A DNA stretch of 60,188 bases, from contig DS999237.1 of the NCBI GenBank assembly GCA_000156295.1, positions 1 to 60,188 on the forward strand. The letters are read 5' to 3'. Below, one piece after another: positions 11,567-29,394 of the stretch; positions within the stretch are counted from its first letter, which is position 1; each line of letters starts with the position of its first letter. This stretch comes from a marine gamma proteobacterium HTCC2148 (lineage in GTDB: Bacteria > Pseudomonadota > Gammaproteobacteria > Pseudomonadales > Halieaceae). A program made the translations under genes and the position numbers. Below the pieces are notes generated by a model, which was given only the letters and a program-made list of their open reading frames with translations, did not search any database and was not told the DNA's origin.

Positions 11567-12115
11567 GTGGCTAATGACAAAGACAAGTTTATCGCCGACC
11601 TGGTTGCAGAGCACGGGGTGCCGCTGGAAAAATATCTGGCACGCAAACTCGACAACTCAGAGGACGCCGCAGAACTGGCTCAGGAAGCTTACATGCGGTT
11701 ACACCGGCTGGAGCAACCTGAGAACCTGGATAACGCGCGTGCCTTCCTGTTCCAGGTAGCCACCAATCTGGCCGTAGATCAACTGCGTCGGCGCCAGTTA
11801 CATTTCAAGTTCCTGAAGTCAGAGAAAAGTCAGTCTGTGGACGGCGAACCTATGGATTACAATGCTGCCGGCGCCTCTCCAGAACAAATTCTTGATGCCA
11901 GGGAAAAGCTGGATACCATCAACCGGGCGATAGAAGAATTACCTTTCAAAGTGAAGCAGGCTTTTTTACTGCACCGCCAAAGCGGTCTATCCTATAGCGC
12001 GATTGCCCGGCAAATGGATGTATCGGTCTCCAGCGTAGAAAAGTACATATTGCACGCACTAAAACATTTTCGCACTGCGCTTAATACAGGCCAACCGCCG
12101 GATAAATCCTCATAA
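11567..12115 (+). CDS. ECF RNA polymerase sigma factor, FecI type
   Basis: A 182-residue sigma-70 factor with only regions 2 and 4. Region 2 lies near residues 15-80 (AELAQEAYMRLHRLE, FLFQVATNLAVDQLRRRQ). Region 4 lies near 120-175 (ELPFKVKQAFLLHRQSGLSYSAIA, then the helix-turn-helix with VSVSSVEKYILHAL). This is the FecI group that works with FecR and a TonB receptor. The start codon is GTG at 11567 without a clear ribosome-binding site. It directly precedes fecR and the STN-domain receptor, so it probably activates that receptor gene in response to ligand. Confidence 0.93.
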   Translation: MANDKDKFIADLVAEHGVPLEKYLARKLDNSEDAAELAQEAYMRLHRLEQPENLDNARAFLFQVATNLAVDQLRRRQLHFKFLKSEKSQSVDGEPMDYNAAGASPEQILDAREKLDTINRAIEELPFKVKQAFLLHRQSGLSYSAIARQMDVSVSSVEKYILHALKHFRTALNTGQPPDKSS

Positions 12116-12255
12116 GAAGATTCACACTTTTCGATAATCATCTATTGAGGGAACTTTTAGTTCGCTCGTCCCATCTATATAGCTACTAAACTTATTTAGC
12201 TCCCCGGGAGGGGGGGCTGCAGGAACTCAAGCGGCAGGATGCTGCGGTAAATACC

Positions 12256-13224
12256 ATGAACGAGGAAACTAACAAACAATACGAGCAAGTATGTGAAGCA
12301 GCCTTAAATTGGGTTGCATGCTTGCGTTCGGATGCCGTTTCAGAGGGAGACAGGCAAGCCTTCGCGCTTTGGCTCGGTAAACACAACTCGCATCGTCGCG
12401 CCATGGATGAAGCGCAGGCGTTATGGGACGATCTTGCGGTCGTGCGTCATATCCCCGTAAACATCGACAAAGCAGCCAACCGTTCGCGCTGGCTGGCCAC
12501 CGCCATGGTTGCCGCTGCTTGCCTGGTTTTGGCTGTGTTCTTGTGGCCGCAGTTGCCATCAGACCCGGTCAGCACCCAGTACCGCAGCGCCATGGGCGAG
12601 CGTCGTACCGTAGACCTCCCTGACGGCTCGGTCATCCACTTAAATACCAATTCCACTATTTCTGTCACCTACACGGATGACCAGCGCCACGTTGATCTAG
12701 AGCGGGGCGAAGTTTGGTTTCAGGTCAGTCCAAATAAACAGCGCCCATTCCATGTCGATGCGGGCGAAGCCAGAATTACAGCTGTTGGCACGGCGTTTAA
12801 CATTTATCTCGACGACAACAGCACCGATGTCACGGTAACGGAAGGCGTTGTTGAAGTCAGCGACATCGGGCAAACAGGCCGTCGCTTGCACGCGGCAGAG
12901 TTGTTACTTGAGAATCAGCGGCTGATTACCGGGATCGACGGTTGGGAACTCTCGTCATCGGACGATGTTTCGAAGCAGATGGCCTGGCAGCGGGGCGAAC
13001 TGGTTGCTGAAGAAATGCCACTGCCTGCATTGATCGAGCAATTGGAGCGCTATCAACAAACCAGAATCATAATCGCCGATCCCAACGTGGCGGCACTCAC
13101 CGTATCTGGTGTTTTACAGCTCGACCAGCCCGAAGCCTCTCTCAGCGCTATCGCGGTCAGCCTGGACCTTCAAATCACCCCCCTGAGCGACACATCCGTT
13201 CTGTTGCTCAAAGCCGAGCAGTAA
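12256..13224 (+). CDS. FecR family anti-sigma factor
   Basis: Inner-membrane sigma regulator of 322 residues. The N-terminal cytoplasmic DUF4880-like domain (ALNWVACLRSD, FALWLGKHNSHRRAMDEA) is followed by one transmembrane helix near residues 77-96 and then the periplasmic FecR domain (GERRTVDLPDGSVIHLNTNS, VEVSD). The C-terminal part (about 240-322) resembles the secretin/TonB-like fold that contacts the receptor signalling domain. It pairs with the sigma factor 140 bases upstream and the STN receptor 82 bases downstream. Confidence 0.94.
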   Translation: MNEETNKQYEQVCEAALNWVACLRSDAVSEGDRQAFALWLGKHNSHRRAMDEAQALWDDLAVVRHIPVNIDKAANRSRWLATAMVAAACLVLAVFLWPQLPSDPVSTQYRSAMGERRTVDLPDGSVIHLNTNSTISVTYTDDQRHVDLERGEVWFQVSPNKQRPFHVDAGEARITAVGTAFNIYLDDNSTDVTVTEGVVEVSDIGQTGRRLHAAELLLENQRLITGIDGWELSSSDDVSKQMAWQRGELVAEEMPLPALIEQLERYQQTRIIIADPNVAALTVSGVLQLDQPEASLSAIAVSLDLQITPLSDTSVLLLKAEQ

Positions 13225-13306
13225 GATATAAAGATATTGCACGGAATCAGCCTCAGCAGTCTGTAGAGGCTTCGTTCCCTATAGGTAACATATAAAAATC
13301 AAAGAG

Positions 13307-16300
13307 TTGTGGCGATTCGCTGCTCTCGGGGTGATAGCAATAGCTGCTCATGGACACAGCTTGGCAAGACCGCCTGGCGCGCGCCCAAAGTGGCGCGGCG
13401 TCTTCCTTGCTGCTCTATTTTCCCTGCTCACTGTAAATGTGGTTTTAAGTGAGCAAGAAGAAACTGTTCACTTCACCATTAAGGCCCCGAGGCTCTCCAG
13501 CGCACTCATTCAGCTGAGTCAGCAAAGCGGTCAGCCCATCGTTTTTTCAGATCGCCTCATCAGAGACCTTCCCGCTAACGAATTGGTGGGCACGGCAACT
13601 ACAGCAGAAGCCCTGGATGTGTTGCTCTCGGGTAACAATCTGGAGTGGACGCTGGTCGACGAGCGCGTCATAACGGTGTACGCGAAAACCTGTGGACCAA
13701 AAAGTAGCGCGTGCATTACGCCAGAGCAAATGGTGGCGGAATATCCGATCTACACCCCCGGGCTTGAAGAAACCTGGGTCTACGGTGCACCCGTCACAGG
13801 CTCCAGGATACGCCGAAACGGCTATACCGGAGGCGCACCTGTCGATATTCTCTCATCGCCTGATATTGAGTTAAGCGGCGCTCAAACGCTTGGCGACTTA
13901 CTCAAATTTGTGCCCGCGGTATCAGGCAACGCGCTTAGCACCGCAATTTCAAACGGAGGGAATGGCACAGCCACAGTCACACTCCGTGGCCTTCCTGCCA
14001 CCAACACTCTGGTTTTAGTTAATGGCCGAAGGGTCGCTAACGACGGGCTCGCCGGAAGCTCGGTAGACCTCAATAGCATCGCACCGGCGGCGGTAGAGCG
14101 TATCGAAATCCTCAAGGATGGCGCTAGTGCCATCTACGGCTCGGACGCGATCGCCGGCGTAGTCAACATTATCATGAAGCGCGACTTCCACGGCTTTCTC
14201 GCCGAAGCGTTCTATGGTGAAACTGGCAAGGGCGACCTGGATACCAGGAACTATACGCTTCAATACGGGACAGGATTGCGCGAAGGCTCTTTTTTCATTA
14301 GCGCATCGCACTACGAACAGGGCGCGATCAACAGCAGGGATCGCAATGTTTCACGCAATGCGGACACTCGGTCGCAAGGTGGCACCGATAGACGCTCCAG
14401 CGCTACGCCCAATGCTCGCGTTGGTTTGCCTGACGGCCAAACCGTAATCGCCCAGCGACAGAGAAACTATCGACCGGCGACAAACGAAGACTTGTTCAAC
14501 TACCAGGACTTCACTACGGCAGTGGTGCCGCTGCGGCGGAGTAGCATTTATACCAACGCCAGCTACGATTTCAGCGAGCGCGTCACCGGCTTTTTGGAGG
14601 CGAGCTACTTGGAGACTGATGCGCAAGCAACGCTTGCTCCAACGCCTATCTTCACGGCGTTTGAACAAGAGCCTCTCTTTGTCGCCGCTGACAGTGCTTA
14701 CAATACCTTTGGTGCTCAGCTCAGCGATGTGCGCAGACGGCTAGTTGAACTGCCTGATCGGCGGCAGCGCAATGAATCGCAGGTTTCGCGGTTTAGCGCC
14801 GTCATTGAGGGTTTGTTTAAAGACTGGAACTGGGATATTGGCTATAGCTATAGCCGCAGCGACGCCAGTGAAACTCGCTACAATTTAGTCAATGCTGACC
14901 GCTTGAGGCGAGCGATCGGGCCATCTTCGCAGTGCCAGGGCTCGGCGATTGATGGCTGCACGCCGGTTAACCTGATTGGTCCGGCAGGGAGCATTTCCCA
15001 AGATCAAATCAATTATATCTCCGCCCGGGGAGACGTGAGCGGTTACTCTCGCCTGTCTGCTGTCAGCCTGAATTTCAGCAGCGCGATCGCTTCACTTGAG
15101 GCCGGTAACGTTGAAATTGCTTTTGGTCTAGAAGGTCGGGACGAGTCCACCAAAAAGAAACCCTCGGCATTGCTGGAGAACACCAGCACCATAGGTGCTA
15201 CCAACTTCGAAGCAACAAAGGGAGAGCGAACGGTTTATGAACTTTACCTCGAGACGCTGCTGCCGCTGTGGCAAAGCTCCAATGGGCTATCCAGAATAGA
15301 CCTTGAAGCAGCTTTGCGCTTCTCTCACTACAGTGATTTTGGCGGCACCTCCAACCCTAAAACCAGCGTTCGCTGGCAGGTAAACCCTGAGTTTCTGTTG
15401 CGTGCCAACTATGCCCAGGGCTTTAGAGCTCCCAGCCTGAACGAGCTTTATGCGGGGGACACAGAAAGCCAGGACCTGCTCGAAGACCCCTGCACCCAGG
15501 CTGCGAATATTGGCGTGCTTCAGGGCTGTAGCCTGCTTGCTGACGCGACTCGCAACCAATTTCTCACCGTCAAAGGTGGCAACGAACTACTCGAGCCCGA
15601 AACCTCAGACAGCTATAGCGCCGGGGTCGTGTGGACGCCGACGGCAGCACCTGGCCTGGCTTTTTCCCTGGACTACTTTCAGATTGACCAGGAAGATGTG
15701 GTTGCTTCCAGCGCGCAATTTATCCTCAACCAAAATGCGAGGGCCGGCGCGTTTGATGACAATATTGAAAGAGATGAGTTGGGCAATCTAACACTAGTGC
15801 AAGCCAATAATATTAACATTGGCGAGCGCTCAATTTCCGGCGCAGATCTAGCACTGACTTATCATTACCCGCGCAAAAGCTGGGGACAGATCAGCGTGGT
15901 AGGAGGCGCTACCTGGATAGAAAATTATCAAACAAGGTTAGATAGCGACGCGCCGCGTCGAGACCTCGCAGGCACCTTCAGGGACGAAGCCTCTGAAGGC
16001 CCCGGAAGCATTCCAGAATGGAAGGCCCAGCTCGGCCTTCGCTGGAGCCAAGAGCGATGGCGAGGGAGCTGGCAGTTACATTACGTCGACGCAATCACAG
16101 AATTGGTGCCGGGCACCCAGCGCACGCGGGGTATCAATAGCTGGGTATTGCATGACCTGCAGCTGAGCCACACTTTTGACGTGTTGGACGGGCTGCGCCT
16201 CACGTTGGGAATTGACAATCTACTCGATGAAGAAGCGCCACTGGCAGTATCAGCTTTCAACGACAATATCGATGGCAGGACCCACGAGCTGAAGGGGCGA

Positions 16301-16333
16301 TTCTGGTATACCCGCTTGAGCCAACGTTTCTAG
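13307..16333 (+). CDS. TonB-dependent receptor with STN signalling domain
   Basis: Outer-membrane transducer of about 1000 residues. After a hydrophobic export signal (about residues 31-48) comes an STN domain (about 50-125: FTIKAPRLSSALIQLSQQSGQ), which contacts FecR. The plug follows (GSRIRRNGYTGGAPVDIL, VTLRGLPATNTLVLVNGRR, EILKDGASAIYGSDAIAGVVN), then a 22-strand barrel ending in a C-terminal phenylalanine (LSQRF). The plug style is of the Oar-like receptors common in marine bacteria. The ligand is unknown; nothing marks it as siderophore-specific. The start is uncertain: TTG 13307 or GTG 13331, both with unusually arginine-rich N-termini before the hydrophobic segment. Confidence 0.92.
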   Translation: MWRFAALGVIAIAAHGHSLARPPGARPKWRGVFLAALFSLLTVNVVLSEQEETVHFTIKAPRLSSALIQLSQQSGQPIVFSDRLIRDLPANELVGTATTAEALDVLLSGNNLEWTLVDERVITVYAKTCGPKSSACITPEQMVAEYPIYTPGLEETWVYGAPVTGSRIRRNGYTGGAPVDILSSPDIELSGAQTLGDLLKFVPAVSGNALSTAISNGGNGTATVTLRGLPATNTLVLVNGRRVANDGLAGSSVDLNSIAPAAVERIEILKDGASAIYGSDAIAGVVNIIMKRDFHGFLAEAFYGETGKGDLDTRNYTLQYGTGLREGSFFISASHYEQGAINSRDRNVSRNADTRSQGGTDRRSSATPNARVGLPDGQTVIAQRQRNYRPATNEDLFNYQDFTTAVVPLRRSSIYTNASYDFSERVTGFLEASYLETDAQATLAPTPIFTAFEQEPLFVAADSAYNTFGAQLSDVRRRLVELPDRRQRNESQVSRFSAVIEGLFKDWNWDIGYSYSRSDASETRYNLVNADRLRRAIGPSSQCQGSAIDGCTPVNLIGPAGSISQDQINYISARGDVSGYSRLSAVSLNFSSAIASLEAGNVEIAFGLEGRDESTKKKPSALLENTSTIGATNFEATKGERTVYELYLETLLPLWQSSNGLSRIDLEAALRFSHYSDFGGTSNPKTSVRWQVNPEFLLRANYAQGFRAPSLNELYAGDTESQDLLEDPCTQAANIGVLQGCSLLADATRNQFLTVKGGNELLEPETSDSYSAGVVWTPTAAPGLAFSLDYFQIDQEDVVASSAQFILNQNARAGAFDDNIERDELGNLTLVQANNINIGERSISGADLALTYHYPRKSWGQISVVGGATWIENYQTRLDSDAPRRDLAGTFRDEASEGPGSIPEWKAQLGLRWSQERWRGSWQLHYVDAITELVPGTQRTRGINSWVLHDLQLSHTFDVLDGLRLTLGIDNLLDEEAPLAVSAFNDNIDGRTHELKGRFWYTRLSQRF

Positions 16334-16478
16334 TTAAGCTGGCCAATTCGAAACCGATGTTTTCTACCTTGCGCTGCAGTGCCTGCGGCCTCACTAAGCG
16401 TCCTAAGCCGGGATAGTGAGGCAATTGAAGATCCAGATGCAGCGCATTCATGCCGCCGCTTCTGGCTTGCTACATCGC

Positions 16479-16832
16479 TCAGTTACTGATTGTGACAACC
16501 TGCGATGTTGAGGTTTGTGCAAGGCCCTGGCCCATAGCGCGCTTGAAACAGGCCTTATTTTGAGAGACCTGGCGAGCTCCGCCAGCTTTGCTGGGATTAC
16601 GAGATCCACAAACAGTATCTGCCGCCCGGGCCATCCGGTAATAAAGTGTTTCCTGGCCGCGATCAGTTTTCAGATCCAGGTCAGCATAGGACACGGTAAC
16701 CTGACGCAGGCCTTCCGCGCTCGTTGTAACGTAAGTTTCATCGTATGACGCGGCGCTCACGCTTGTTACGGTACCTACGACAACCGCGATCACTGCGGCA
16801 GAAAACAGCTTATTCATTCTAGCGTTTTTCAT
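16479..16832 (-). CDS. UrcA family exported protein
   Basis: Small secreted protein of 117 residues with a signal peptide (NKLFSAAVIAVVVGTVTSVSA) and the UrcA-family pattern: VTVSYADLDLKTDRGQETLYYRMARAADTVCG, then a second cysteine (NKACFKRAM). The two cysteines probably form a disulfide. The function of the family is unknown. Members are frequent beside TonB receptors in alpha- and gammaproteobacteria. The start at 16832 is supported by GGGAGAACC 3 bases upstream. It is transcribed alone, towards the end of the STN receptor gene. Confidence 0.85.
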   Translation of the reverse strand: MKNARMNKLFSAAVIAVVVGTVTSVSAASYDETYVTTSAEGLRQVTVSYADLDLKTDRGQETLYYRMARAADTVCGSRNPSKAGGARQVSQNKACFKRAMGQGLAQTSTSQVVTISN

Positions 16833-17175
16833 AATGGTTCTCCCTACTCTTAAGTCGACGGCATAATTGCCTTTTTTAAAACAGGCGGCTTCCTATGACG
16901 CCTGCCCTTGAGAAAGAAGATAGGGTAAGAATTACACTGAAAATAGTCAGTTTCGCCCAACCGAAGACCTATAGGGATAAGTTGAGGCTTTTTGTCGATG
17001 AGCTGTTTCAATCTCATCGTTAATAAGCAGGAGACATTGAGAAAATAGGGTTGAACACTCGGACGGATGGAGGCGAAACGGCTACTGATCTCAAGTCAAA
17101 CCGAACGGGTTCGCCGCTACGCCACTCTCGCTGGTATACTCCTTAGCTTGTTTTGAGCAAGGTTCTATAAACATA
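16833..17175. other. Intergenic region between urcA-type gene and exported protein gene
   Basis: A divergent 343-base spacer with no convincing gene. It holds a hairpin of 6-base arms at 16882-16904, followed on the minus strand by TTTT, in the leader of the UrcA gene. A second inverted repeat has 7-base arms CGATGAG (16996-17002) and CTCATCG (17013-17019). An extended -10 promoter for the plus-strand gene lies at 17132-17140. None of the hairpins is strong enough to assign a role. Confidence 0.5.
17132..17140 (+). promoter_or_regulatory. Extended -10 promoter element
   Basis: TGGTATACT is a near-consensus extended -10 (TGnTATAAT-like), 35 bases before the ATG at 17176. No good -35 lies 17 bases upstream, which is common for extended -10 promoters. 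Confidence 0.5.
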
Positions 17176-17694
17176 ATGCGATCAATTACTACGCTTCTTT
17201 GTCTTCTGTTCTCCGTCGGCTTTACTGCCGAAATAGCGGCCGAAAATTCCGATTCAATCGTCGCAGAGTTAAAACACTGTGCAGGGATTGAAAATCGTGA
17301 AGACCGCGTTGAATGCTACGAGTCATTAGGTCGGCGGGTAACCCATGCCGAGCAAGAAAGTACTGCTGAAGTTGCTTCCGCGACCGCCGCCAGTGTCGAG
17401 GTGAAGAGCAGCAATGACAAGGATACGATGGGCGGGTACGAATTCGAAACAAAGTCAGCCGCGGAACAAGAAGCCGAGCAACAGATGAAGACTCGCGTTG
17501 TTCTCTGCCAAAAAAACATAGACGGGATTTGGTACTTCAAGCTCGAGAATGGCCAGGTTTGGAAGCAAGTTGACCGACAGCGCTTGGCTTTCCAGGGGTG
17601 TGATTTTGGGGCGATAGTGACTAACGACGGCATCGGCTATGTTTTGCGCATCGACGGAAGAGAAGGAAAAATCCGGATTAGGCGACGCAAATAA
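17176..17694 (+). CDS. Exported protein of unknown function
   Basis: 172 residues with a signal peptide (RSITTLLCLLFSVGFTAEIAA). The mature N-terminus has a Cys pair pattern (LKHCAGIENREDRVECYESLG) seen at the start of various small periplasmic proteins. A charged low-complexity linker follows (about 55-95). The C-terminal domain, with FKLENGQVWKQVDRQRLAF, ends in VLRIDGREGKIRIRRRK and looks like a small beta-rich fold. I do not recognise a named family. It sits between the receptor signalling genes and the hydroxylase genes; whether it belongs to either is unknown. Confidence 0.75.
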   Translation: MRSITTLLCLLFSVGFTAEIAAENSDSIVAELKHCAGIENREDRVECYESLGRRVTHAEQESTAEVASATAASVEVKSSNDKDTMGGYEFETKSAAEQEAEQQMKTRVVLCQKNIDGIWYFKLENGQVWKQVDRQRLAFQGCDFGAIVTNDGIGYVLRIDGREGKIRIRRRK

Positions 17695-17898
17695 CAGTAA
17701 ATCGTCCTGGGACCGCCTCGTCCAAAGCTTAAAGTGGCGTTTTTATACTCAAAATTAGCCAAAAAAGCGATCTACGTGCAAATAAAATCTCTTTTTAAGG
17801 CCTTATATCGTCCAATATGTTGTGAAAATCCAGATATAGAATTTTTCGGTAAGTGACCTGTGACCATTCGCATGCTCAACAGTAATCGAGGATAACCC

Positions 17899-19080
17899 GT
17901 GTCGTTGAATGGGAAAAAAGCTCAGCAAGAGTCGCTGGAGGCGCAATTAGAGAGCGCAATCGCCCACAGTGACGATGAGCAATGTCTCGAATTGATGAGA
18001 AGCCTGGGCAGGCTATGCCCGGATGACGCCGAGATCCAGCACCGACTGGGGTCGGTTGAAGAGCAGCTGGGTACTGCAGAAAAGGCGCTGGCTGCGCACC
18101 TTTGCTCCATTAGTCTGGCACCCCAAAACCCTCTGACCTATTTATACTCGGGGTTTTGCTTGCAGCAGATGGGCCGACGGGATGAGGCGATCGAGGTATG
18201 GTCATTAGGTTCAGACCTCGAACCCGCGCTGCTAAACCCACCGCACCGCAATGACCCCACAGGGGAGCGACTCGTCGCCGCTGCAACGGCCCTCAGAGAA
18301 CATTTTTCCCAACTACACCGTGATTCGAGCAACACCACAACGCCATCTCACAAAATAACGGGAGCCATCTGGCCTCAAACTACCGACACGCCCTTCAATT
18401 ACCACACTGACCAGCAACGCCCTTCTCTTTTTTATATTCCCGAATTAACCGCCCGCCCCTGGCATGACCTTCAAGGCCTTCGCTGGGTTGAGCACCTCGA
18501 AGCACTCAGTGGCGACATAGTAAAAGAGTTTAGCGATGCACAGGGCAGCTTGCATGCCGTCTGCAGGCCTTATTTGGGTGTCGAAATGAAGCTGGGGCCG
18601 CAATTTACCGAGTTGCAAGGCTCGCTCAATTGGACCGCGCTTGACTTGTACCGAGACGGAAAGTTGCAGAGTAAGGTTGCTCAATATTTTCCAGTCACAC
18701 TCGCTGCACTCGAGCAGGTGCCGCTTTATGGCATGGACAGTCTTCCCTATGAGGTTTTTTTCTCCGTTTTGAAGCCCGGGCAGCACATTAAGCCCCACTT
18801 TGGCCTTTCTAATCACAGCCTGACGATCCACCTTCCTCTTATTGTCCCGCCCGGGTGCTCATTAACCGTGGCCGGCCAACGACGGCAATGGGTCCCAGGG
18901 CGCATATTGGCGTTTGACGACAGTTATATCCATGAGGCGATAAACCCTGGCGGGGAGCAGCGGGTGGTACTCATCTTTTCAATATGGCACCCGGACCTCA
19001 GCAAAGGGGAATGTGATGCCATTCAGCGCAGTTTTACCGCCAGGGCCCGCTGGTTGGCGGCGCGACAGCTGCCACTGTGA
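17899..19080 (+). CDS. TPR protein with aspartyl/asparaginyl beta-hydroxylase domain
   Basis: 393 residues. Residues about 10-115 form two to three TPR-like helix pairs (LGSVEEQLGTAEKALAAHL, GFCLQQMGRRDEAIEVW). Residues about 165-385 form an Asp/Asn beta-hydroxylase domain of the AspH type: LFYIPELTARPWHD, then HFGLSNHSLTIHLPL with His300 and Gly302. The distal site is FDDSYIHEA with His345, followed by Arg355 for 2-oxoglutarate. The HxG in place of HxD is the normal two-histidine iron site of AspH. The start is GTG at 17899 with GAGG upstream. The substrate is unknown. The domain order (TPR then hydroxylase) parallels animal AspH, which modifies secreted proteins, but this protein has no signal peptide. 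Confidence 0.88.
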   Translation: MSLNGKKAQQESLEAQLESAIAHSDDEQCLELMRSLGRLCPDDAEIQHRLGSVEEQLGTAEKALAAHLCSISLAPQNPLTYLYSGFCLQQMGRRDEAIEVWSLGSDLEPALLNPPHRNDPTGERLVAAATALREHFSQLHRDSSNTTTPSHKITGAIWPQTTDTPFNYHTDQQRPSLFYIPELTARPWHDLQGLRWVEHLEALSGDIVKEFSDAQGSLHAVCRPYLGVEMKLGPQFTELQGSLNWTALDLYRDGKLQSKVAQYFPVTLAALEQVPLYGMDSLPYEVFFSVLKPGQHIKPHFGLSNHSLTIHLPLIVPPGCSLTVAGQRRQWVPGRILAFDDSYIHEAINPGGEQRVVLIFSIWHPDLSKGECDAIQRSFTARARWLAARQLPL

Positions 19081-19116
19081 TAGTGTGTTTCATCAACCCA
19101 ATAGCCAAGAAAAAAA

Positions 19117-19821
19117 ATGCTTTCATCTTCTCTAAATACTGAAGAACTGGCGCAAAAATATAGCGCCGATCAGCGAATTCGAATTCCCGATGTCTTACAG
19201 CCAGAGCTTGCACAGCAGTTGCAGGGTCTTTACTACAGCTTGATACCGTTTGAACAGTTGATGTCTGTGCAGGGTCAGAACCGTGCGTTTACCGCCAGCG
19301 AAATGGCAGCAATGAGCGACACTGCGAAACGGCAATTGCAAGAACAACTGGTGCGCCAGGCAGGCGAGGGAGTTGGGTTCCTCTACGGAGGCTATCGGTT
19401 GACAGATGGTCGCGCAAAAAACATCCCCGCGCTTGAACCGCTGCAAACGCTATTTGATTACCTCAATAGCGATGACATGCTAAATTTCGTGCGATCAGTC
19501 ACGGGCGAGGCTGGCTTGGTCGGCGCCGATGGTCATGCCACCCAATACACACCGGGAAATTTCCTTACCCGGCACAGAGATGATCCCGCTGGCGAGCAAA
19601 GGCGTGTTGCCTACGTGTTTAACTTCAGCAAAAGTTGGCACCCGGACTGGGGAGGCTTATTGCAGTTTTTTGAGGAAGACGGCACTCCACGTGACGCCTG
19701 GGCGCCTCAATTCAACAGCTTGGCGCTGTTCGATGTCCGTCATATCCATTCGGTGACCTACGTAACGCCCTTTGCCAGAGAACCCAGGCTATCGATGACT
19801 GGCTGGTTTCACACCGGTTAA
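19117..19821 (+). CDS. 2OG-Fe(II) oxygenase, prolyl-hydroxylase-like (copy 1)
   Basis: 234 residues with a double-stranded beta-helix oxygenase core. The iron ligands are His153 and Asp155 (HRDD) and His211 (HSV), and Arg224 (PRLSMTGW) would bind 2-oxoglutarate. The fold and motifs YTPGNFLTRHRDD and WGGLLQFF resemble the Tpa1/OGFOD1 group of prolyl hydroxylases. It lies 36 bases after the AspH-like gene and is probably co-transcribed with it. A clear paralogue is at 24916-25632. The substrate is unknown; a ribosomal protein, as for OGFOD1, or a surface protein are both possible. Confidence 0.87.
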   Translation: MLSSSLNTEELAQKYSADQRIRIPDVLQPELAQQLQGLYYSLIPFEQLMSVQGQNRAFTASEMAAMSDTAKRQLQEQLVRQAGEGVGFLYGGYRLTDGRAKNIPALEPLQTLFDYLNSDDMLNFVRSVTGEAGLVGADGHATQYTPGNFLTRHRDDPAGEQRRVAYVFNFSKSWHPDWGGLLQFFEEDGTPRDAWAPQFNSLALFDVRHIHSVTYVTPFAREPRLSMTGWFHTG

Positions 19822-20160
19822 AGGGCCCAATTCTCAGTAATCCGGTGCAAAAGTTAGTCATTTGCTGTTTTTGAGGCTCCCGGACTGTGAATATGCCACA
19901 ACAGGGTGCGTTTAAACTTATCTTTCGACCCCCATTTCGGTAGTCTCTGGGTCGGGAAAAAAAGTGCTGAGACACCGAATCCCCCAGGAAGTGCAGACCG
20001 TGCGCGAAAAGTGTGAATTTTCACACTTTTGCCTTTGAGGGCACACATTCGCCAAACGTCTCACATTCGACACATCCAGATTAAATAAGGCCGCAGTCAG
20101 GCTGGGTCTGGTCATCAACTTTTAAATTACATAATGTTCGCAATTACTACAGGGGTAATT
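19822..20160. other. Promoter region of the second TonB receptor
   Basis: A 339-base spacer without a convincing gene. It contains the palindrome at 20007-20030, two direct copies of CACATTCG (about 20043 and 20063) and AT-rich sequence near 20120-20135. A good ribosome-binding site (AGGGG) precedes the ATG at 20161. It probably holds a strong regulated promoter, but I cannot place -35 and -10 with confidence. Confidence 0.5.
20007..20030. promoter_or_regulatory. Perfect inverted repeat, candidate operator upstream of TonB receptor
   Basis: AAAAGTGTGA (20007-20016) and TCACACTTTT (20021-20030) are exact complements around ATTT, 130 bases before the receptor ATG. The core TGTGA-N4-TCACA resembles a CRP site but has a 4-base rather than 6-base spacer, so another dimeric regulator is more likely. 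The right 11 bases recur exactly at 12121-12131, before fecR. Confidence 0.55.
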
Positions 20161-23010: not shown

Positions 23011-23032
23011 TCAGCGCTTAAACTGCTAAACT

Positions 23033-23065
23033 AAAACGGCGGGCTCAGGCCCGCCGTTTTTTTTT
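23033..23065 (+). terminator. Rho-independent terminator after the TonB receptor gene
   Basis: A 12-base perfect stem (AAAACGGCGGGC with its complement) with loop TCAG is followed by a run of nine T within and after the right arm. It lies 23 bases after the receptor stop and isolates the receptor transcript from the TPR-oxygenase gene at 23083. Confidence 0.93.
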
Positions 23066-23082
23066 GTCCCGGATTCAGGCTA

Positions 23083-24915
23083 ATGCCAACTGACCCTCGT
23101 GTACGCTACCAGGCACTGCTTCAACAGCTTTCCAAGCTAGTTCAAAGTAATCCAAAGCTTGCTCTGAAAAAAATTCAGGAACACTTGCGACAGCGACCAG
23201 CCGATGCAAATTTTCTTCACTTGAAGGGACTCGCAAAGGCGGATATGGGATTACATGATGCAGCGATAGAGGCAATGCGAGCATCACTGAAGGCCCACCG
23301 TCAACAGCCTGAAGTACACAATAACCTCGCTAACAGCTACAAAGCTATTGGGCAAACCGAGCGTGCAGAGCAGCACTATCGCGACGCGATCACACTCAAT
23401 CCAAATTATCTCGACGCCTTTAAAAACCTTGGATTATTGCTGCAATCAACTGGTGACCTGTCAAACGCCATAACTTTTTTACAGCGCGCAGTTGACCTGT
23501 CTACTCAAAAGGCGCCCATGCTCACCGCGTTAGGTAATGTCTATCGCGAACAGGAGCTGTTCCAGCAGGCAGTACCCTGTTACCAGGCCGCATTACAAAT
23601 TAATCCAAGTTACGTCAATGCGATTCACAATCTGGGACTTTGTTACAAGCTTACTGAAGAACTGGAACAGGCACGCATCTGTTTCGAAAGGGCAGCCGCA
23701 ATTGCGCCTGATGTTGCTGAGATAGATGTCAGTTTGGGCAATGTTGCATTCGAACTTAAGGATTACCAGACAGCAGAAAACTGCTTTGAAAACGCGATTC
23801 ACAAGGAATCGGGCTATGTACTGGCGCACGAGACCCTGAGTGAACTTAAGTGGCAGTTGGGAAAAACAGACAGCTATTTAAGCTCCTATGAAATCGCTTT
23901 GAAAGAGCGACCCCAGGACATGGCTCTTCGTCATTCCCTATTGCGGCTCTTAATCAATAGTCAGCGCTATGATGAAGCGCGGGACCTTGTTGATCGAACA
24001 ATGCACACCACACAAACGCCTGAGCTGTTGCGTGCCACTGGCGAGCTATATGCCAACGACGGTGACTATGTACAGGCAAGGCAAAACTTTGAGGCGTCTC
24101 TAAAGCTGGCCCCATCCACCGAGGTCACTCAAGACCTTGTTAAGTTAATGCTGATCAAAGCCGACTATGACGCAGCTTTGCCTCTGCTGGATTCGCTGCT
24201 AGTCATTCAACCAAACAATCAGCTTAACTGGGCATTAACTGGAACAGCCTGGCGACTTCTCGGTGATGAGCGCTACCAGTGGCTGATTGATTACAATAGA
24301 GATGTTCAGGTAAGCACCCTGCCAACGCCACCAGGTTACCGCTCGCTGACTGACTTTTTACAGCACTTACAAAGCGTATTGTTAAACATGCATAGCACTC
24401 AAGCCGCGCCTATGCGACAGACCCTGGTTGAAGGCACCCAAACACCTGGACGGCTGCTGCACAAATCGGATCCAGTGATTCAGCTCTATCGCTCTGCGTT
24501 GTCAGCGGCGGTGAAGGACTACATAAGTCGGATGCCCAATGATACTGAGCACCCTTTATTTTCTCGGAAGTCATCGGCGTTTGAATTTTCTGGTTCTTGG
24601 TCAGTAAAGCTGCGCAGCAATGGCTATCATGTCAATCATGTTCACCCTGAGGGCTGGATCAGCTCCGCTTGTTATATTCATTTGCCCTCCAGTATGGGCA
24701 ATCAAGACAGCACGGCCGGCTGTATTAAGTTTGGTGAAAGCCCTCTGGATTTAGGAAACAGAGAGATCGTTGAAAGAGTGATCCATCCACTGCCGGGTCA
24801 ACTTGCGCTATTTCCCTCCTACGCCTGGCACGGCACATTCGACTTCGATTGCGCGGAAGACGACTTCAGACTGACGGCACCGTTTGACGTAATACCGATA
24901 AAAAAACAGCCTTAA
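23083..24915 (+). CDS. TPR protein with C-terminal putative 2OG-Fe(II) oxygenase domain
   Basis: 610 residues. About residues 15-400 hold ten or so TPR repeats (for example VHNNLANSYKAIGQTERAEQHY and ALGNVYREQELFQQAVPCY). The C-terminal 200 residues match the 2OG-FeII_Oxy_5 type: VNHVHPEGWISSACYIHLP with His519 and His521, FPSYAWHGT with His583, and Arg596 in DDFRLTAPF. The TPR part presumably recruits a protein substrate, which is not identified. Its stop (24913-24915) directly abuts the stop of the convergent oxygenase gene, with no base between them. No signal peptide. Confidence 0.88.
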   Translation: MPTDPRVRYQALLQQLSKLVQSNPKLALKKIQEHLRQRPADANFLHLKGLAKADMGLHDAAIEAMRASLKAHRQQPEVHNNLANSYKAIGQTERAEQHYRDAITLNPNYLDAFKNLGLLLQSTGDLSNAITFLQRAVDLSTQKAPMLTALGNVYREQELFQQAVPCYQAALQINPSYVNAIHNLGLCYKLTEELEQARICFERAAAIAPDVAEIDVSLGNVAFELKDYQTAENCFENAIHKESGYVLAHETLSELKWQLGKTDSYLSSYEIALKERPQDMALRHSLLRLLINSQRYDEARDLVDRTMHTTQTPELLRATGELYANDGDYVQARQNFEASLKLAPSTEVTQDLVKLMLIKADYDAALPLLDSLLVIQPNNQLNWALTGTAWRLLGDERYQWLIDYNRDVQVSTLPTPPGYRSLTDFLQHLQSVLLNMHSTQAAPMRQTLVEGTQTPGRLLHKSDPVIQLYRSALSAAVKDYISRMPNDTEHPLFSRKSSAFEFSGSWSVKLRSNGYHVNHVHPEGWISSACYIHLPSSMGNQDSTAGCIKFGESPLDLGNREIVERVIHPLPGQLALFPSYAWHGTFDFDCAEDDFRLTAPFDVIPIKKQP

Positions 24916-25632
24916 TCAACTTCGGGGATCTTTACCGGTTCGAAACCATCCTGTGATTGACAGGCGCGGGCCCGATGCGAAAGGCGTTACAAACTCTACG
25001 GCATGACTCTGTGGTATTTGAAACACGTTCAAGGTGTTAAATGCGGGTAAAAAACCCTCTTCGATATTACCTTGCCCATTAAAAAACTGCAGGGCACCAC
25101 CCCAATTCGGGTTCCAGTTTTTAGTCATACTGATGACATAGGCAGCTACTCGGTTTTTACCACCGATATCGTCATCATGAGTGGTGAGGAAGTGGCCGGC
25201 CTCAAAGCAAGTCGCCTGAGCATCACAGAAACCTATCTCCGGTCGCCCAAGTAACTCTCGGCCAAAATCAAGAAATGCTTCACTGTTAAGGAACTCGAAC
25301 AATGTGCTAAAGAAATGTCCGGGTAGAGTACGATCATGGTAAACGTCATAGATTGGCACTGCTTTGTAGCGATACTGAAATCCATTCATCGCCCCTGCAT
25401 AAATCATTTCATCAAATTGCAGGCTCTGAGCGTCTGTCCAAACAGAAGCACTGTCCGAACCAATGTCCACATGCTCTTCGTTGCGATTGAACGCGAGGTT
25501 CCATTGTTTCTGGTTGGCGAGACTGCGATACAGCTGTTCTGCGCTTGCATCATCAAGTAGACCTGGAACCTGTATTCGTCGCCGCTGGGAAAACTGCTCG
25601 GTCCAATCAGCGGCATTGGCAGCAAGCCTCAT
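24916..25632 (-). CDS. 2OG-Fe(II) oxygenase, prolyl-hydroxylase-like (copy 2)
   Basis: 238 residues, clearly paralogous to the protein at 19117-19821. Shared blocks are GHFLTTHDDD, NWNPNWGGALQFF, AFNTLNVF and EFVTPFASGPRLSITGWF. The iron ligands are His152, Asp154 and His210, with Arg223 for 2-oxoglutarate. All key residues are kept, so it should be active. The N-terminal half has diverged strongly from copy 1, suggesting a different substrate. It is transcribed divergently from the TPR-sulfotransferase gene 65 bases away and convergently with the TPR-oxygenase. Confidence 0.87.
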   Translation of the reverse strand: MRLAANAADWTEQFSQRRRIQVPGLLDDASAEQLYRSLANQKQWNLAFNRNEEHVDIGSDSASVWTDAQSLQFDEMIYAGAMNGFQYRYKAVPIYDVYHDRTLPGHFFSTLFEFLNSEAFLDFGRELLGRPEIGFCDAQATCFEAGHFLTTHDDDIGGKNRVAAYVISMTKNWNPNWGGALQFFNGQGNIEEGFLPAFNTLNVFQIPQSHAVEFVTPFASGPRLSITGWFRTGKDPRS

Positions 25633-25697
25633 TGATGGCCCCTTTATAAATGCATTTACGATGTGTCCTGCAGCTTCCTAATGTATCATCTTCTCCC

Positions 25698-27557
25698 ATG
25701 TCTTCCGACCTGTTACAAGAAGCTGAGTCTGCGCATCGGCGCGGCGACCTGAGCAATGCGGAGCGCTTATATCGTCAGCTGCTCAGCGAGAGCTCGACCA
25801 ATTCGAGTGCCCTTTTTGGTTTGGGTACACTAGCAATGCGCAGTGGGCAGTATAAAAAAGCTGCAGACCTGCTCGAGCAAGCGGCAGTCATCGAACCGCA
25901 CGCCGCAGACATAGGCCTTAATCTCGCGCTCGCCCTGCAAAAGAGCGGGCAAATAAAAGAGGCCATCAAGCATGCTCTGCGCAGCGCTGCACTGGCGTCA
26001 GGGGACGAACATTTTGCCAACGCAATAGGAAAAGTCCTGCTGGATCTCAGGCAACCTGTCGCGGCCATGGAATTATTGCGCAGTTGTTCACCTACTCGAG
26101 CCTCTACTACAATTTTACTCAGTCGAGCCATGGGAGCACTGGGTGACTGGGATCGCGCCGTTGCGCTTTTACGGAGCTTGGCGAAATCGAACAGCAGCGA
26201 CCCCGAAATCGCCGTTGAGCTATCGGTAGCTGCCGGGAAACTGCGTGACTATCCATTGGCGATTGCCAGCTTTAAACACTACCTGACGCTGATAACACCA
26301 ACGGCATCGGATCATCTGCGTTTTGCAGACCTATACCTTATAGCTCGCGATGTTAGCAACAGTGACCAACAGCTGTGCCTCGCTCGAGAAGCCGGGGCAG
26401 CTGGCGCCGACTATCACGTGTTGCGCGGCCGTCTGGACCGACTCGGCGGAAACATGCGCAGCGCCCAAGAAAATAGCGTAGCAGCTCTCGATTATCAGCC
26501 AGGCCACGGTCAAGCCTGGTCACTGCGAATTGAGTCTGCTAATGACACTGACCTTGAAGATTCCGTGGCAGCATTGTCCCTAGAGCTCGCCAACGAAATG
26601 AGCGCAGCCACACCTTACTATCGCACATTAATGCTCTACGCTGTTGCCACAGGGCAGGATCGCCTGGGTGATCTTACCGCCGCCGCGCAGGCATTCAACC
26701 AAGCGAATGCGCTACAAAAGTGCGCTCTTGCTGACAGTGGCAGAACTTACGACATTGACGCTGAATCGACTCGAACTGATAGGCTTAGGCGGCAGCATAG
26801 AACGCAGCTTAAAGAAGCGTGCGTCTCTCAATATCGCCCTATCTTTATTGTTGGCATGCCACGCTCTGGAACCACGCTCATCGAAAAAGTGATTTCCAGG
26901 CTTGCAGGCGTCACTCCTGGAGGTGAGAACGAGGCGCTCACATTTATCGCAGCACAATATCAGCGAGATGTAATGACTGGTCGTTTGCCTGAACCCCAGG
27001 GCCTGTCGCCATCACAATGGCAAGATTTGGCCTCGCGTTACATTGCACTTTCTCCTGGAGCCAACAACATATTCACCGACAAAATGCCTCATAATTTTCA
27101 GCACGTCGGGCTCATTCTGGGAATGTTTCCACACGCTCGTGTCATTCAAATGCGGCGTGAGCCCCGTGACAACTGCCTGTCGATATACCAACGCCCCTTT
27201 CCGGAAGGGCATAACTATGCCTGTGACGCAATCACCTTGGGTCATGCCTGGTGTCAGGCTCAAGGTCTTATGGATTATTGGGTGGAGCTTGACCCGACCA
27301 AAGTCAAAGACCAGAGCTTTGCAGATTTTGTCGACAATCCTGAGGAGGCCGGCAAAGCCCTAGCCGATTTTTGTCAGCTGCCCTGGCATCCTGAGTGCCT
27401 CATTTCAGACCTTCAAGATAACCCCAGTTTTACTTTCAGCGAATTGCAGGTCAGAAGCTCTATATCCAACACTGCAGTCGGGCGATGGCAACGTTACGCA
27501 AAAGTTATGCCCGAGTTTTTTGCTGCGCTAGCCGAACAGGGTTGCCTTGAGCGCTGA
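25698..27557 (+). CDS. TPR-domain sulfotransferase
   Basis: 619 residues. The N-terminal half (about 1-340) is TPR-like (RRGDLSNAERLYRQLL, LFGLGTLAMRSGQYKKAADLL). The C-terminal half is a PAPS-dependent sulfotransferase with the 5'-phosphosulfate loop FIVGMPRSGTTLIEKV around residue 389, and a 3'-phosphate-binding region in VIQMRREPRDNCLSIY. The ATG at 25698 begins the first TPR helix; an upstream in-frame ATG would overlap the promoter region. Related TPR-sulfotransferases are proposed to modify proteins, with tyrosine sulfation the best-known precedent for the fold, but the acceptor here is unknown. Confidence 0.88.
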   Translation: MSSDLLQEAESAHRRGDLSNAERLYRQLLSESSTNSSALFGLGTLAMRSGQYKKAADLLEQAAVIEPHAADIGLNLALALQKSGQIKEAIKHALRSAALASGDEHFANAIGKVLLDLRQPVAAMELLRSCSPTRASTTILLSRAMGALGDWDRAVALLRSLAKSNSSDPEIAVELSVAAGKLRDYPLAIASFKHYLTLITPTASDHLRFADLYLIARDVSNSDQQLCLAREAGAAGADYHVLRGRLDRLGGNMRSAQENSVAALDYQPGHGQAWSLRIESANDTDLEDSVAALSLELANEMSAATPYYRTLMLYAVATGQDRLGDLTAAAQAFNQANALQKCALADSGRTYDIDAESTRTDRLRRQHRTQLKEACVSQYRPIFIVGMPRSGTTLIEKVISRLAGVTPGGENEALTFIAAQYQRDVMTGRLPEPQGLSPSQWQDLASRYIALSPGANNIFTDKMPHNFQHVGLILGMFPHARVIQMRREPRDNCLSIYQRPFPEGHNYACDAITLGHAWCQAQGLMDYWVELDPTKVKDQSFADFVDNPEEAGKALADFCQLPWHPECLISDLQDNPSFTFSELQVRSSISNTAVGRWQRYAKVMPEFFAALAEQGCLER

Positions 27558-27612
27558 TGTTTCAACGCTGAATGAGCAGTCTGGAGCAACCCCTAAATTT
27601 TCAAAGAATAAA

Positions 27613-28401
27613 CTAAAGCCCTGCGCGTGCATCAGCCTCAGCAATCAGTTTGACACGTCGGTTCAACAATCGACTCCAGTTTTCCAATGAGAATACGTGA
27701 GCAAAAATGAAGGACAGGTATCCCTTCTGATGCAAATCGCTCAAATCAGATGCAGACAACAGATTGAGCTTGTCTACGTCTACCGCGAAATAACTACCGA
27801 TCGATTGAGATTCCTCATTTCCACCGGCCCTGGCCTGTTGCTCTGATAGCAGGCCCAGCTCCGACAGCGTGTCGCTGAACTCTTTGGTTCTGCGACGCTC
27901 GGCCTCAAACTGGCCGCAAAATTCGACCATTTGTTGGGTTTGTGCCGATAAGCCATCGCTATCAAAGAAAGGGGTCTCAAAATCCTCGACGATGGCTTTG
28001 GCGGCGCGATCAATCACAATAGCAAACTGGTCATCAGGACCCATCGCCGTAGCGAACGGATGGCGCCTCAGATAAGAAGGAATATAAGCGCCCGCTTCCC
28101 ACTGCCCGTTTTCATCTGTAAACATGTTTCGATCTTTCATGAGCGACAATACCGCCAAAGGCACTCCATTTTCCTTGCTGGAAAAAACCACAGGGTAAAA
28201 CTTTTGCGCAGAACTTATCTCAGAAGCCACCAGCGGCACCGACCGTATTCCGGCAGCGAACTCAAACGGCTTATCGATGCCTCGCCAGCCCAGCTTTCCG
28301 TGATCCTCCCTGTTCAGAAACTCTGGCTGCTCATAGAGAAACATTGTTCCCTTGGGCGCTCTAATGCCCGCTGTTGCGCCTGCTTGCGAAGAGTCTGTCA
28401 T
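27613..28401 (-). CDS. SapC family protein
   Basis: 262 residues matching the SapC family: FLYEQPEFLNREDHGKLGW, FYPVVFSSKENGVPLAVLSL, YIPSYLRRHPFA and FDSDG are its hallmark blocks. The family was named from Campylobacter S-layer work. In marine proteobacteria it recurs beside TonB receptors, oxygenases and halogenases, and its activity is not established. No signal peptide is seen. It lies 87 bases downstream of the methyltransferase gene on the same strand and converges on the sulfotransferase gene. Confidence 0.88.
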   Translation of the reverse strand: MTDSSQAGATAGIRAPKGTMFLYEQPEFLNREDHGKLGWRGIDKPFEFAAGIRSVPLVASEISSAQKFYPVVFSSKENGVPLAVLSLMKDRNMFTDENGQWEAGAYIPSYLRRHPFATAMGPDDQFAIVIDRAAKAIVEDFETPFFDSDGLSAQTQQMVEFCGQFEAERRRTKEFSDTLSELGLLSEQQARAGGNEESQSIGSYFAVDVDKLNLLSASDLSDLHQKGYLSFIFAHVFSLENWSRLLNRRVKLIAEADARAGL

Positions 28402-28488
28402 GTCTGCTTATTCCCGAGATTAATTAAGCTAAATGATACCCTCTCGCGTCTTCGGTGGCATCTGTTCAATCGCATCTGGTGATGACTG

Positions 28489-29394
28489 CTATAAGCGCAG
28501 TGCATGCAACGCCCAACCCACTAGCGCGGGATCCTGGTCTCCTACAAACTGCTCATCGATACTAACGCTACCAAACCCCGCTTCGATGGCTGCCATCTGC
28601 AATAATGAAGCGCTGGCTTCATCTAAAGCTGCACTGCGCAATTGAGAAAGGCGAACTGACTCGGCAACCAAACGCTGCTCCATGCCGGAAGCCAGAGCCA
28701 GGGCCCGCTCAGGAAACGACTGGCGATCATCTATAACCCGACTTATGCCCGCCATAATCTGCCCCGAAATGTGCTTCGATTTGCCCGCCGGATTATCTAG
28801 ATAATCGCGACCCGCAGCCTCTAAATCTCTCAGCTCACCCTGCTCTCGCACAAACCGCTTAAGATGTTCAATCAATCCATCAGGGCGTGTTAACGCTTCT
28901 ATTTCTGCGATCACCGTCTCCGCCGGGCGCACGATTCCACTTTCGTTATGATGCAGCAACAGGCGCATGGGTGCGCCGGGTTTCAAGACCCTTGCAGCTT
29001 CGCGTAAGGCCGGAGACTGTGGGGCATACTCTAGTCCGAATTGACTGGTTACCCCGTCAAACCGGGCATCGTCGAACGGTAAATCGCAGATATCTGTTTC
29101 CGGGAAAAACTGTACTTCACCCAAGGTGTCGAATTTTTCTGCCAGTCTTTCAGGCGCAATATCTGCCAGATCGACAGCGCTGATAGACAAACTTGTGTTA
29201 GCTGCCAGAAGAGCAACTGGCACTGCACCGTTGCCGCTCGCGAGGTCTAACAGCTGTGCACCTTGAGCCATACCGTTGGCAAATTCCGCCCAGAACTCAT
29301 CAATATATGCTTGGTCTTTTGCATCCTGCGACGCGATGCAGCTGTATAAATTGCCGCTCTGCCAATAAAGAGTCCACGGGTTTTCCGAGGTCAT
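28489..29394 (-). CDS. Class I SAM-dependent methyltransferase
   Basis: 301 residues with a SAM-binding core: motif I LLDLASGNGAVPVALLA near residue 48, an acidic residue in AVDLAD, PFDDARFDGVTSQFGLEY as motif IV, and EAARVLKPGAPMRLLLHH as the post-motif. The C-terminal 120 residues are helical and not recognised. The substrate cannot be predicted. It is probably co-transcribed with the SapC gene. Confidence 0.82.
   Translation of the reverse strand: MTSENPWTLYWQSGNLYSCIASQDAKDQAYIDEFWAEFANGMAQGAQLLDLASGNGAVPVALLAANTSLSISAVDLADIAPERLAEKFDTLGEVQFFPETDICDLPFDDARFDGVTSQFGLEYAPQSPALREAARVLKPGAPMRLLLHHNESGIVRPAETVIAEIEALTRPDGLIEHLKRFVREQGELRDLEAAGRDYLDNPAGKSKHISGQIMAGISRVIDDRQSFPERALALASGMEQRLVAESVRLSQLRSAALDEASASLLQMAAIEAGFGSVSIDEQFVGDQDPALVGWALHALRL

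Follow-up and report, generated by a model that had tools for sequence, protein, structure and literature searches.

The marine gamma proteobacterium HTCC2148, a member of the Halieaceae with a genome of 4.33 Mb, carries on contig DS999237.1 an 18-kb locus (11567-29394) in which two genes for TonB-dependent receptors (TBDRs) lie among genes for 2-oxoglutarate (2OG)-dependent Fe(II) oxygenases, a sulfotransferase and a methyltransferase. The window analysed here is the stretch of 60,188 nucleotides of this contig that contains the locus, and positions refer to it. The locus is real, recurrent in other genomes and modular; its function we infer. Judged by sequence relationships, the second receptor, TBDR2 (20134-23010, plus strand), and two enzymes that combine tetratricopeptide repeats (TPRs) with an oxygenase domain, AspH_TPR (17899-19080, plus strand) and TPR_Oxy5 (23083-24915, plus strand), clearly behave as one exchangeable cassette. 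We propose that the cassette enzymes modify TBDR2 before its export, and assign this complete chain a probability of about 0.4. That TBDR2 and the enzymes form one functional unit is highly probable, and that the enzymes modify a protein is likely.

In the Halieaceae, the locus is often located between FADox-SerA and MarC and comprises FecI-FecR-TBDR1, the small protein c3, TBDR2 and a varying set of enzymes. The flanks and FecI-FecR-TBDR1 were retained in all seven genomes of the same genus, with identities, where seen, of 79-84% for FADox, 85-90% for SerA, 81-91% for MarC, 75-83% for FecI, 56-60% for FecR and 66-71% for TBDR1. The receptors of all seven genomes were 28-35% identical to TBDR2, and none of the seven loci contained an orthologue of AspH_TPR or TPR_Oxy5. 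TBDR2 itself was 82% identical to its counterpart in genome G024, 70% in G026, 66% in the metagenome-assembled genome (MAG) Ww382, 63% in Thalassotalea algicola, 61% in Colwellia, 60% in Glaciecola, 56% in Pseudoalteromonas and 54% in a member of the Kordiimonadales; within this TBDR2-bearing group the identities were 30-56% for Oxy5 and 37-49% for AspH. The enzymes of the same-genus loci varied: three sulfotransferases, an AspH-type protein and a PF13640 oxygenase in G001, two methyltransferases and another AspH-type protein in G002, and one TPR-sulfotransferase, methyltransferase and Oxy4 each in G006 and G007; at the G004 locus no such enzymes were seen. In G006, an AspH match was present at C1:102341-102964. 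Co-inheritance against the genome background was found for TBDR2, AspH and Oxy5; for the sulfotransferase, the methyltransferase and Oxy4 the comparison did not discriminate. The first-pass annotation had based co-function on proximity; it is better supported now because TBDR2 is exchanged together with AspH and Oxy5 and the flanks are kept. The system proposed there is supported as a unit for these three components, with a plausible chemistry.

The stable frame contains the FecI-type extracytoplasmic function (ECF) sigma factor (11567-12115; Sigma70_r2/r4_2), the anti-sigma factor FecR (12256-13224; FecR, DUF4880) and the TonB-dependent transducer TBDR1 (13307-16333; STN, Plug and barrel domains), all on the plus strand. 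The STN domain of TBDR1 scored 28.7 bits against a Pfam cut-off of 28.4, and Pfam found Plug and barrel domains without STN in TBDR2. FecI, FecR and a receptor with an N-terminal STN domain constitute a Fec-type module, so that the description of two TonB receptors, one with a FecI-FecR set, was correct. The inclusion of this module in the proposed system holds as far as its presence at the locus is concerned, but it belongs to the stable frame and lies outside the swapped cassette.

Recurrence was analysed in loci chosen by TPR_Oxy5 (L046-L065, 20 of 26 places; G077 was added as L118 and G111 left out), by AspH (L066-L117), by the receptor (L119-L125) and by c3 (L233-L252, 20 of 80 places), and in a scan of named relatives with AspH alignment A1 (best 80 of 590 relatives). 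Because the loci were chosen by an anchor gene, co-occurrence counts are biased upward for the non-anchor genes. A search of relatives with the sulfotransferase TPR_ST gave two clear orthologues, in G026 and G024, where identity to the window was, respectively, 51% and 56% for TPR_Oxy5, 47% in both for TPR_ST, and 47% and 48% for AspH. Both genomes contain TBDR2, TPR_Oxy5, TPR_ST, AspH, SapC and the methyltransferase (MT) in shuffled gene order; both Oxy4 genes are present in G026 and FecI-FecR-TBDR1 in G024. Among 140 Halieaceae genomes, TPR_Oxy5 was found in 26 (E <= 1e-60) and AspH_TPR in 63 (E <= 1e-20). Ten of the 20 TPR_Oxy5 places had a TBDR2 match and AspH, eight of these ten also TPR_ST; the other ten were without a TBDR2 match, several of them being on short contigs. 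TBDR2, TPR_Oxy5, MT, AspH, TPR_ST and two Oxy4 proteins occur together in T. algicola, T. loyana and T. eurytherma. Without MT, this set is present in Colwellia chukchiensis; without MT and with SapC, it is present in MAG Ww382. A Glaciecola MAG has TBDR2, Oxy5, MT, AspH, Oxy4 and SapC without a sulfotransferase, a Kordiimonadales MAG has TBDR2, Oxy5, one Oxy4, a sulfotransferase, MT and a double AspH, and three Pseudoalteromonas genomes have TBDR2, Oxy5 and AspH. In an Arenicella MAG the enzymes are located at a contig end, and the contig stops before any receptor. Lack of a conserved neighbourhood in relatives, named in the first-pass annotation as a finding that would refute the system, is thereby not borne out: the set recurs in the Halieaceae, in other orders and in one other class.

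A TBDR was located within 5 kb of 52 of the 96 AspH genes in the named-scan loci (52 of the 79 with full flanks or a match), of 40 of the 65 AspH-TPR genes in the family loci (40 of 52) and of 25 of the 35 TPR-PF13759 genes in the family loci (25 of 29). Anchoring on the receptor only removes the enzyme-anchor bias. In this search, window-type TBDR2 (E <= 1e-180) was present in two of 369 genomes of the class, one being the window's own, and in 6 of 21 genomes of the family of the second receptor-positive genome. All four receptor-anchored loci readable on the enzyme side carried TPR_Oxy5, MT, TPR_ST and Oxy4, and two carried AspH; in the other two of the six, the enzyme side lies beyond the contig end. 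AspH-TPR genes with no TBDR match nearby were seen in L066, L067, L070, L153 and other loci, including two from a single genus that are fairly close homologues (G158, 42%; G159, 39%).

Co-inheritance was quantified with identity matrices over Halieaceae loci, in which missing identities of cassette genes were set to 20 and each receptor was assigned to TBDR1 or TBDR2 according to its best match, L233 and L237 thereby falling outside the matrices; the three Pseudoalteromonas rows in the identity matrices and in the loop comparison described below are near-duplicates. TBDR2 correlated with AspH (r = 0.82, n = 41), Oxy5 (r = 0.85, n = 24), MT (r = 0.78, n = 26) and the sulfotransferase (r = 0.69, n = 27). 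After removal of frame similarity, the coefficients were 0.89 (n = 25), 0.91 (n = 9), 0.72 (n = 24) and 0.56 (n = 19), respectively, with p at the permutation floor of 0.0005 for all four pairs. TBDR1 was more closely explained by frame identity (r = 0.76) than TBDR2 was (r = 0.40).

The gene calls at 8760-32980 were scanned against Pfam and NCBIfam, and every gene named in the first-pass annotation was found at its place, including four 2OG-Fe(II) oxygenases of three kinds (PF05118, PF13661/PF13640 twice, and PF13759). AspH_TPR, an AspH-like aspartyl/asparaginyl beta-hydroxylase, matched PF05118 with E = 5e-38. Its nearest PDB relatives were AspH chains (E = 1.5e-21, 80 bits), presumably of the human enzyme, and the match spanned the motifs FDDS-x-x-HE and W-x-P. 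Residues H300, H311, H345 and R355 were invariant in 79 of 79 sequences; we take H300 and H345 to be the metal-binding His pair and R355 to be the 2OG-binding Arg. The preceding TPR region was below the Pfam threshold (TPR_12, 23.7 bits vs 30.1) yet matched designed TPR proteins (8bu0, E = 3e-9), in line with the earlier statement that three of the enzymes carry TPRs. With PF05118, the His pair, the Arg and the preceding TPRs, AspH_TPR has the features of an AspH-type protein. The AspH proteins of the window, G024 and G026 read NHSLT(I/V)HL, and 12 of 13 other aligned members have Arg two positions after the Asn; the loss of this Arg may change co-substrate or substrate binding. In two alphaproteobacterial proteins (L129:8579-11194 and L140:1156-3666), two AspH domains are fused with TPRs.

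The two oxygenases of the PHD/Tpa1 type, Oxy4a (19117-19821, plus strand) and Oxy4b (24916-25632, minus strand), matched PF13661/PF13640, and the residues H153xD155, H211 and R224 (HxD...H...R) were present in 12 of 12 sequences. The nearest solved chains of Oxy4b were 4iw3 (E = 3.8e-5) and TPA1 (E = 7.6e-4), which we take to be the EF-Tu prolyl hydroxylase of Pseudomonas putida and the yeast protein, respectively; the residue pattern and this relation place Oxy4 in the PHD/Tpa1 type. TPR_Oxy5 has a TPR region and a PF13759 domain, and its residues H519, H521, H583 and R596 were invariant in 43 of 43 sequences.

TPR_ST (25650-27557, plus strand) combines TPRs with a sulfotransferase domain (PF13469, E = 1.6e-31) that carries the P-x-S-G-T-T motif for binding of 3'-phosphoadenosine 5'-phosphosulfate (alignment A4). 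E426, presumably the catalytic Glu, and R503 were invariant in 45 of 45 sequences, and R405 was present in 98%. When the structure predicted for TPR_ST by AlphaFold2 (mean pLDDT 89) was searched with Foldseek, TPR proteins, including OGT and SPINDLY, ranked at the top, and human TPST2 (3ap3) was the first sulfotransferase among the 50 matches listed (rank 42, E = 8.9e-7, TM 0.63 by target length); TPST1 was a weak sequence match (E = 0.0027). Fold, motif and Glu are thus those of a tyrosylprotein-sulfotransferase-like protein. By these relationships, the cassette enzymes look like modifiers of proteins (AspH, TPST2, PHD/Tpa1), and their catalytic residues are intact. The enzymes are probably cytoplasmic, because no export signal was visible when their N termini were read by eye.

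The start of TBDR2 is probably at 20161, as first annotated, rather than at 20134, since the orthologue of G024 starts with MKTNKLTS. In the AlphaFold2 model of TBDR2 (mean pLDDT 82), in which outer loops were assigned by loop length, eight conserved cysteines are located as four pairs in loops 448-490, 630-698, 734-767 and 823-848 (23-row alignment). When TBDR2 was compared with ten window-type receptors from the named AspH scan, loops 448-490, 541-557, 630-698 and 920-948 showed 66-86% identity vs 33-71% for strand segments, and loops 226-308, 734-767 and 823-848 showed 53-60%. Several of the loops assigned to the outside are therefore under a constraint equal to that of the barrel, in keeping with a ligand or a modification that these receptors have in common. 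The idea of an arms race, in which the enzymes would mask a phage receptor, was dropped because several long outer loops are conserved; other loops vary.

With respect to the substrate, the scan of the proteins at 8760-32980 revealed no nonribosomal peptide synthetase (NRPS), polyketide synthase or precursor; no search was made for an unlinked scaffold. Between the genes of nine cassettes there was no small open reading frame common across genera: those that were shared proved to be gene ends within the 60-base padding or were common to near relatives (Thalassotalea, Colwellia), and a precursor peptide was rejected as a candidate. Wider clustering of small reading frames yielded c3 (150 amino acids, secreted) and a cluster of 100-amino-acid lipoproteins (cluster 15), the two that were examined. 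The earlier statement that no NRPS or precursor gene is seen thus stands for these proteins and the nine gaps, and the locus has neither the make-up of an NRPS cluster or of one for a ribosomally synthesized, modified peptide, nor that of RaxX-RaxST, as no exporter family was found at 8760-32980. Between the first and the last gene of the compact Thalassotalea cassettes, all proteins except the receptor are enzymes. TBDR2 would be the most economical substrate of the enzymes, because no precursor or scaffold gene was found in the nine cassettes and the receptor is the only non-enzyme in the compact ones.

We therefore propose a receptor locus with two layers. The stable frame (SerA side, FecI-FecR-TBDR1, MarC side) would sense and signal, and the swappable cassette would consist of TBDR2 and its own modifying enzymes, which are probably cytoplasmic: AspH-like and PHD-like hydroxylases, the PF13759 oxygenase, the TPST-like sulfotransferase and, in many cases, a methyltransferase or SapC. 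The TPR domains would bind unfolded or newly made protein, the hydroxylases would act on Asp/Asn and probably Pro, and the sulfotransferase would sulfate a side chain, perhaps one created by hydroxylation; methylation might be added. The modified protein would be TBDR2 itself, before export, and its conserved, cysteine-paired outer loops would thereby gain a ligand-binding chemistry specific to the receptor type. A fuller version of this scheme is tentative and, in our view, somewhat doubtful. In it, the exported receptor would bear eukaryote-like secretory modifications on its outer loops (beta-hydroxy-Asp/Asn, hydroxyproline, sulfate, perhaps methyl) introduced by TPR-guided cytoplasmic enzymes, receptor and kit would be exchanged across genera, orders and classes, and uptake specificity would be set by the modification pattern together with the sequence.

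Alternatively, the enzymes could act on a small molecule, or on a ribosomal peptide, that is imported by TBDR2, in the way that siderophore receptors co-vary with their ligand. Receptor and enzymes do co-vary, and the same-genus loci pair a different receptor with the same chemistries (sulfotransferases, AspH-type proteins, a 2OG oxygenase, methyltransferases). For Oxy4b, NCBIfam also gave a weak match (25 bits vs a cut-off of 150) to YhhC, a cyclophane-peptide oxygenase, and a FecI-FecR-TBDR frame is a typical sign of iron-complex signalling. We nevertheless consider a small-molecule substrate rather unlikely: besides the lack of biosynthetic genes and common gap reading frames described above, a cassette distributed from Alpha- to Gammaproteobacteria would need a scaffold that every recipient already makes, and the TPRs of three enzymes suggest that the substrates are proteins.

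Modification of another protein of the uptake system, namely c3, a TonB/ExbB/DUF3450 partner or a surface protein encoded elsewhere that works with TBDR2, is unlikely. Members of the c3 family, secreted proteins of about 150 amino acids of which the scanned one had no Pfam match (e.g., L084:13124-13594), were found in 76 of the 140 Halieaceae genomes (80 places, 22 of 28 genera), counting the window copy, which had itself contributed a row to the search model. A TBDR stood beside c3 in all 20 c3-chosen loci, 13 of which showed one of the five enzymes searched for with hidden Markov models or a related one, and one of which (L241) was cut off by its contig. The c3 copy of the window (17176-17694, plus strand) is a diverged family member, a relationship that the first-pass annotation had overlooked, with 17-25% identity and the common motif F-x-L-[DE]-N-G-[QD]-x-W-x-Q (alignment A2), and is probably a leftover of the local locus. 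Against a role of c3 as substrate, neither L126-L134, among which are the Thalassotalea and Colwellia cassettes, nor G026 had a c3 match. Genes for DUF3450-ExbB-ExbB-ExbD-TonB-TPR follow directly 3' of the cassette in Thalassotalea, Colwellia and Glaciecola (L132:14964-19913, L133, L134, L128, L131; identified by Pfam for T. algicola and by position and size for the other loci) and fit a receptor-centred system. Such a TonB2-type cluster is absent from the window locus, however; its nearest copies in the same genome are on contigs C18 and C6. In another Halieaceae genus, a tryptophan halogenase gene (L252:3280-4902) lies between TBDR and c3, and a lipoprotein of about 100 amino acids with T-G-[ST]-R and paired Cys (cluster 15) is encoded at L084:9582-9872 and in 11 other loci from several genera.

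That the enzymes modify a lipid or an envelope polysaccharide, by LpxO/OlsC-like hydroxylation or sulfolipid formation, and share nothing but regulation with the receptors, is very improbable. AspH_TPR showed weak NCBIfam matches to OlsC (50.7 bits) and LpxO (38.8 bits), but these are far under the cut-offs of 450 and 500, by which a lipid hydroxylase was rejected, and the AspH chain match reached 80 bits through both AspH motifs. Chance proximity in TBDR-rich genomes, with 7 to 81 first-look TBDR candidates per listed genome, can be dismissed, as only 2 of 20 random 16-kb regions from long contigs of 19 relatives held a TBDR (44-66 bits) and the set recurs across orders and in one other class.

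Several observations weigh against the proposal that the cassette enzymes modify TBDR2. Across 95 TBDR2-type receptors, 74 with AspH nearby and 21 without, no Asp/Asn position was convincingly tied to the presence of AspH; the best site, N444 (0.88 vs 0.48, p = 2.6e-4 over 21 columns, uncorrected for phylogeny), is located in a predicted strand. The C-x-D in loop 448-490 appeared promising as an AspH site in the window-type receptors, but was rejected because many AspH-positive receptors have Ser instead. Loops 355-386 (38%), 597-602 (32%) and 877-896 (30%) are poorly kept. Six of the 20 c3-chosen loci (L236, L239, L240, L246, L247, L252) were without these enzymes, so that receptors of the broader kind can occur in their absence; none of the cassette enzymes was seen in the receptor-chosen locus L125, and 12 fully flanked AspH-TPR family genes have no TBDR within 5 kb. 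The sulfotransferase of the window is 30-47% identical to those of the TBDR2-bearing group, with 30-32% to Thalassotalea/Colwellia vs 30-33% to the same-genus sulfotransferases. Oxy4b is 42-44% identical to Oxy4 of two same-genus loci vs 44-48% to those of Colwellia/Thalassotalea, with 46-48% for Thalassotalea, and the MT identities are likewise non-discriminating. Because same-genus identities match the distant ones, sulfotransferase, MT and Oxy4 alone do not show exchange. TBDR1 also tracks AspH (r = 0.84, n = 13) and MT (r = 0.85, n = 15), and still tracks TBDR2 after frame removal (r = 0.58, n = 20); relatedness was not fully removed in the matrix tests. Furthermore, the genes of the locus do not form one operon, and LpxO and OlsC, which are relatives of AspH, act on lipids. 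Our confidence in the functional unit and in the complete chain was lowered because of the enzyme-free c3 loci and the non-separating identities of sulfotransferase, MT and Oxy4.

Of the remaining genes of the locus, SapC (27613-28401, minus strand; PF07277, E = 3.7e-59) adjoins the cluster in G024, G026, L126, L127, L131 and L157, and MT, a class I S-adenosylmethionine-dependent methyltransferase (28489-29394, minus strand; Methyltransf_11), adjoins AspH or TBDR2 in many loci. Both had been proposed as members of the system and do recur frequently, but they are optional. None of the 88 scanned family loci had a match to UrcA (16479-16832, minus strand; Pfam/NCBIfam), and its proposed membership is not supported. 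Downstream, at 31150-32980, genes for ArsR, a low-molecular-weight phosphatase of the ArsC type and an SBF-type transporter follow consecutively and probably form an arsenic resistance operon. Elsewhere in the genome, two adjacent PF13640 oxygenase genes are present at C22:156168-157261, a region without a match at E 1e-4 to the 18 window proteins compared.

TonB-dependent receptors govern what many marine bacteria eat, and to our knowledge none is known to be hydroxylated or sulfated. If the proposal is correct, the sequence of a receptor does not suffice to predict its ligand, and the 2OG oxygenases and sulfotransferases that are usually annotated as scattered enzymes would belong to one system that can be tested and whose partner is named. 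Decoration of the receptor itself would be a new bacterial way of surface modification. Even with a different substrate, the exchangeable cassette offers a direct handle on the molecule that its enzymes change.

The locus can be compared with several known systems. Like AspH, AspH_TPR has TPRs followed by PF05118 and conserved His and Arg positions; unlike AspH, it is without a visible export signal and probably cytoplasmic. TBDR loci with tryptophan halogenase and SapC are common in Caulobacter and its relatives. They share with our locus the combination of a TBDR with accessory enzymes, and family locus L252 has a halogenase near TBDR and c3; the hydroxylase-sulfotransferase receptor set and its exchange set our locus apart, and no description of either was found in the literature searched, as judged by titles. 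TPR_ST is like TPST in that TPST2 was its first listed Foldseek sulfotransferase and TPST1 a weak match. RaxST was modelled on TPST2 (PMC6637879). Unlike TPST and RaxST, TPR_ST has a long TPR domain and neighbours that are hydroxylases and a receptor, and unlike for RaxST, no RaxX-like peptide or type I exporter was found in the scanned stretch around it. The solved structures closest to Oxy4b are 4iw3 and TPA1, in which respect it is like PPHD/Tpa1; the Oxy4 copies differ from these in being paired and linked to a receptor. With its ECF sigma factor, FecR and STN-bearing TBDR in this order, the locus is like Fec surface signalling (FecA-FecR-FecI); unlike in Fec signalling, its modifying enzymes and TBDR2 are not part of the module and are exchanged independently of it.

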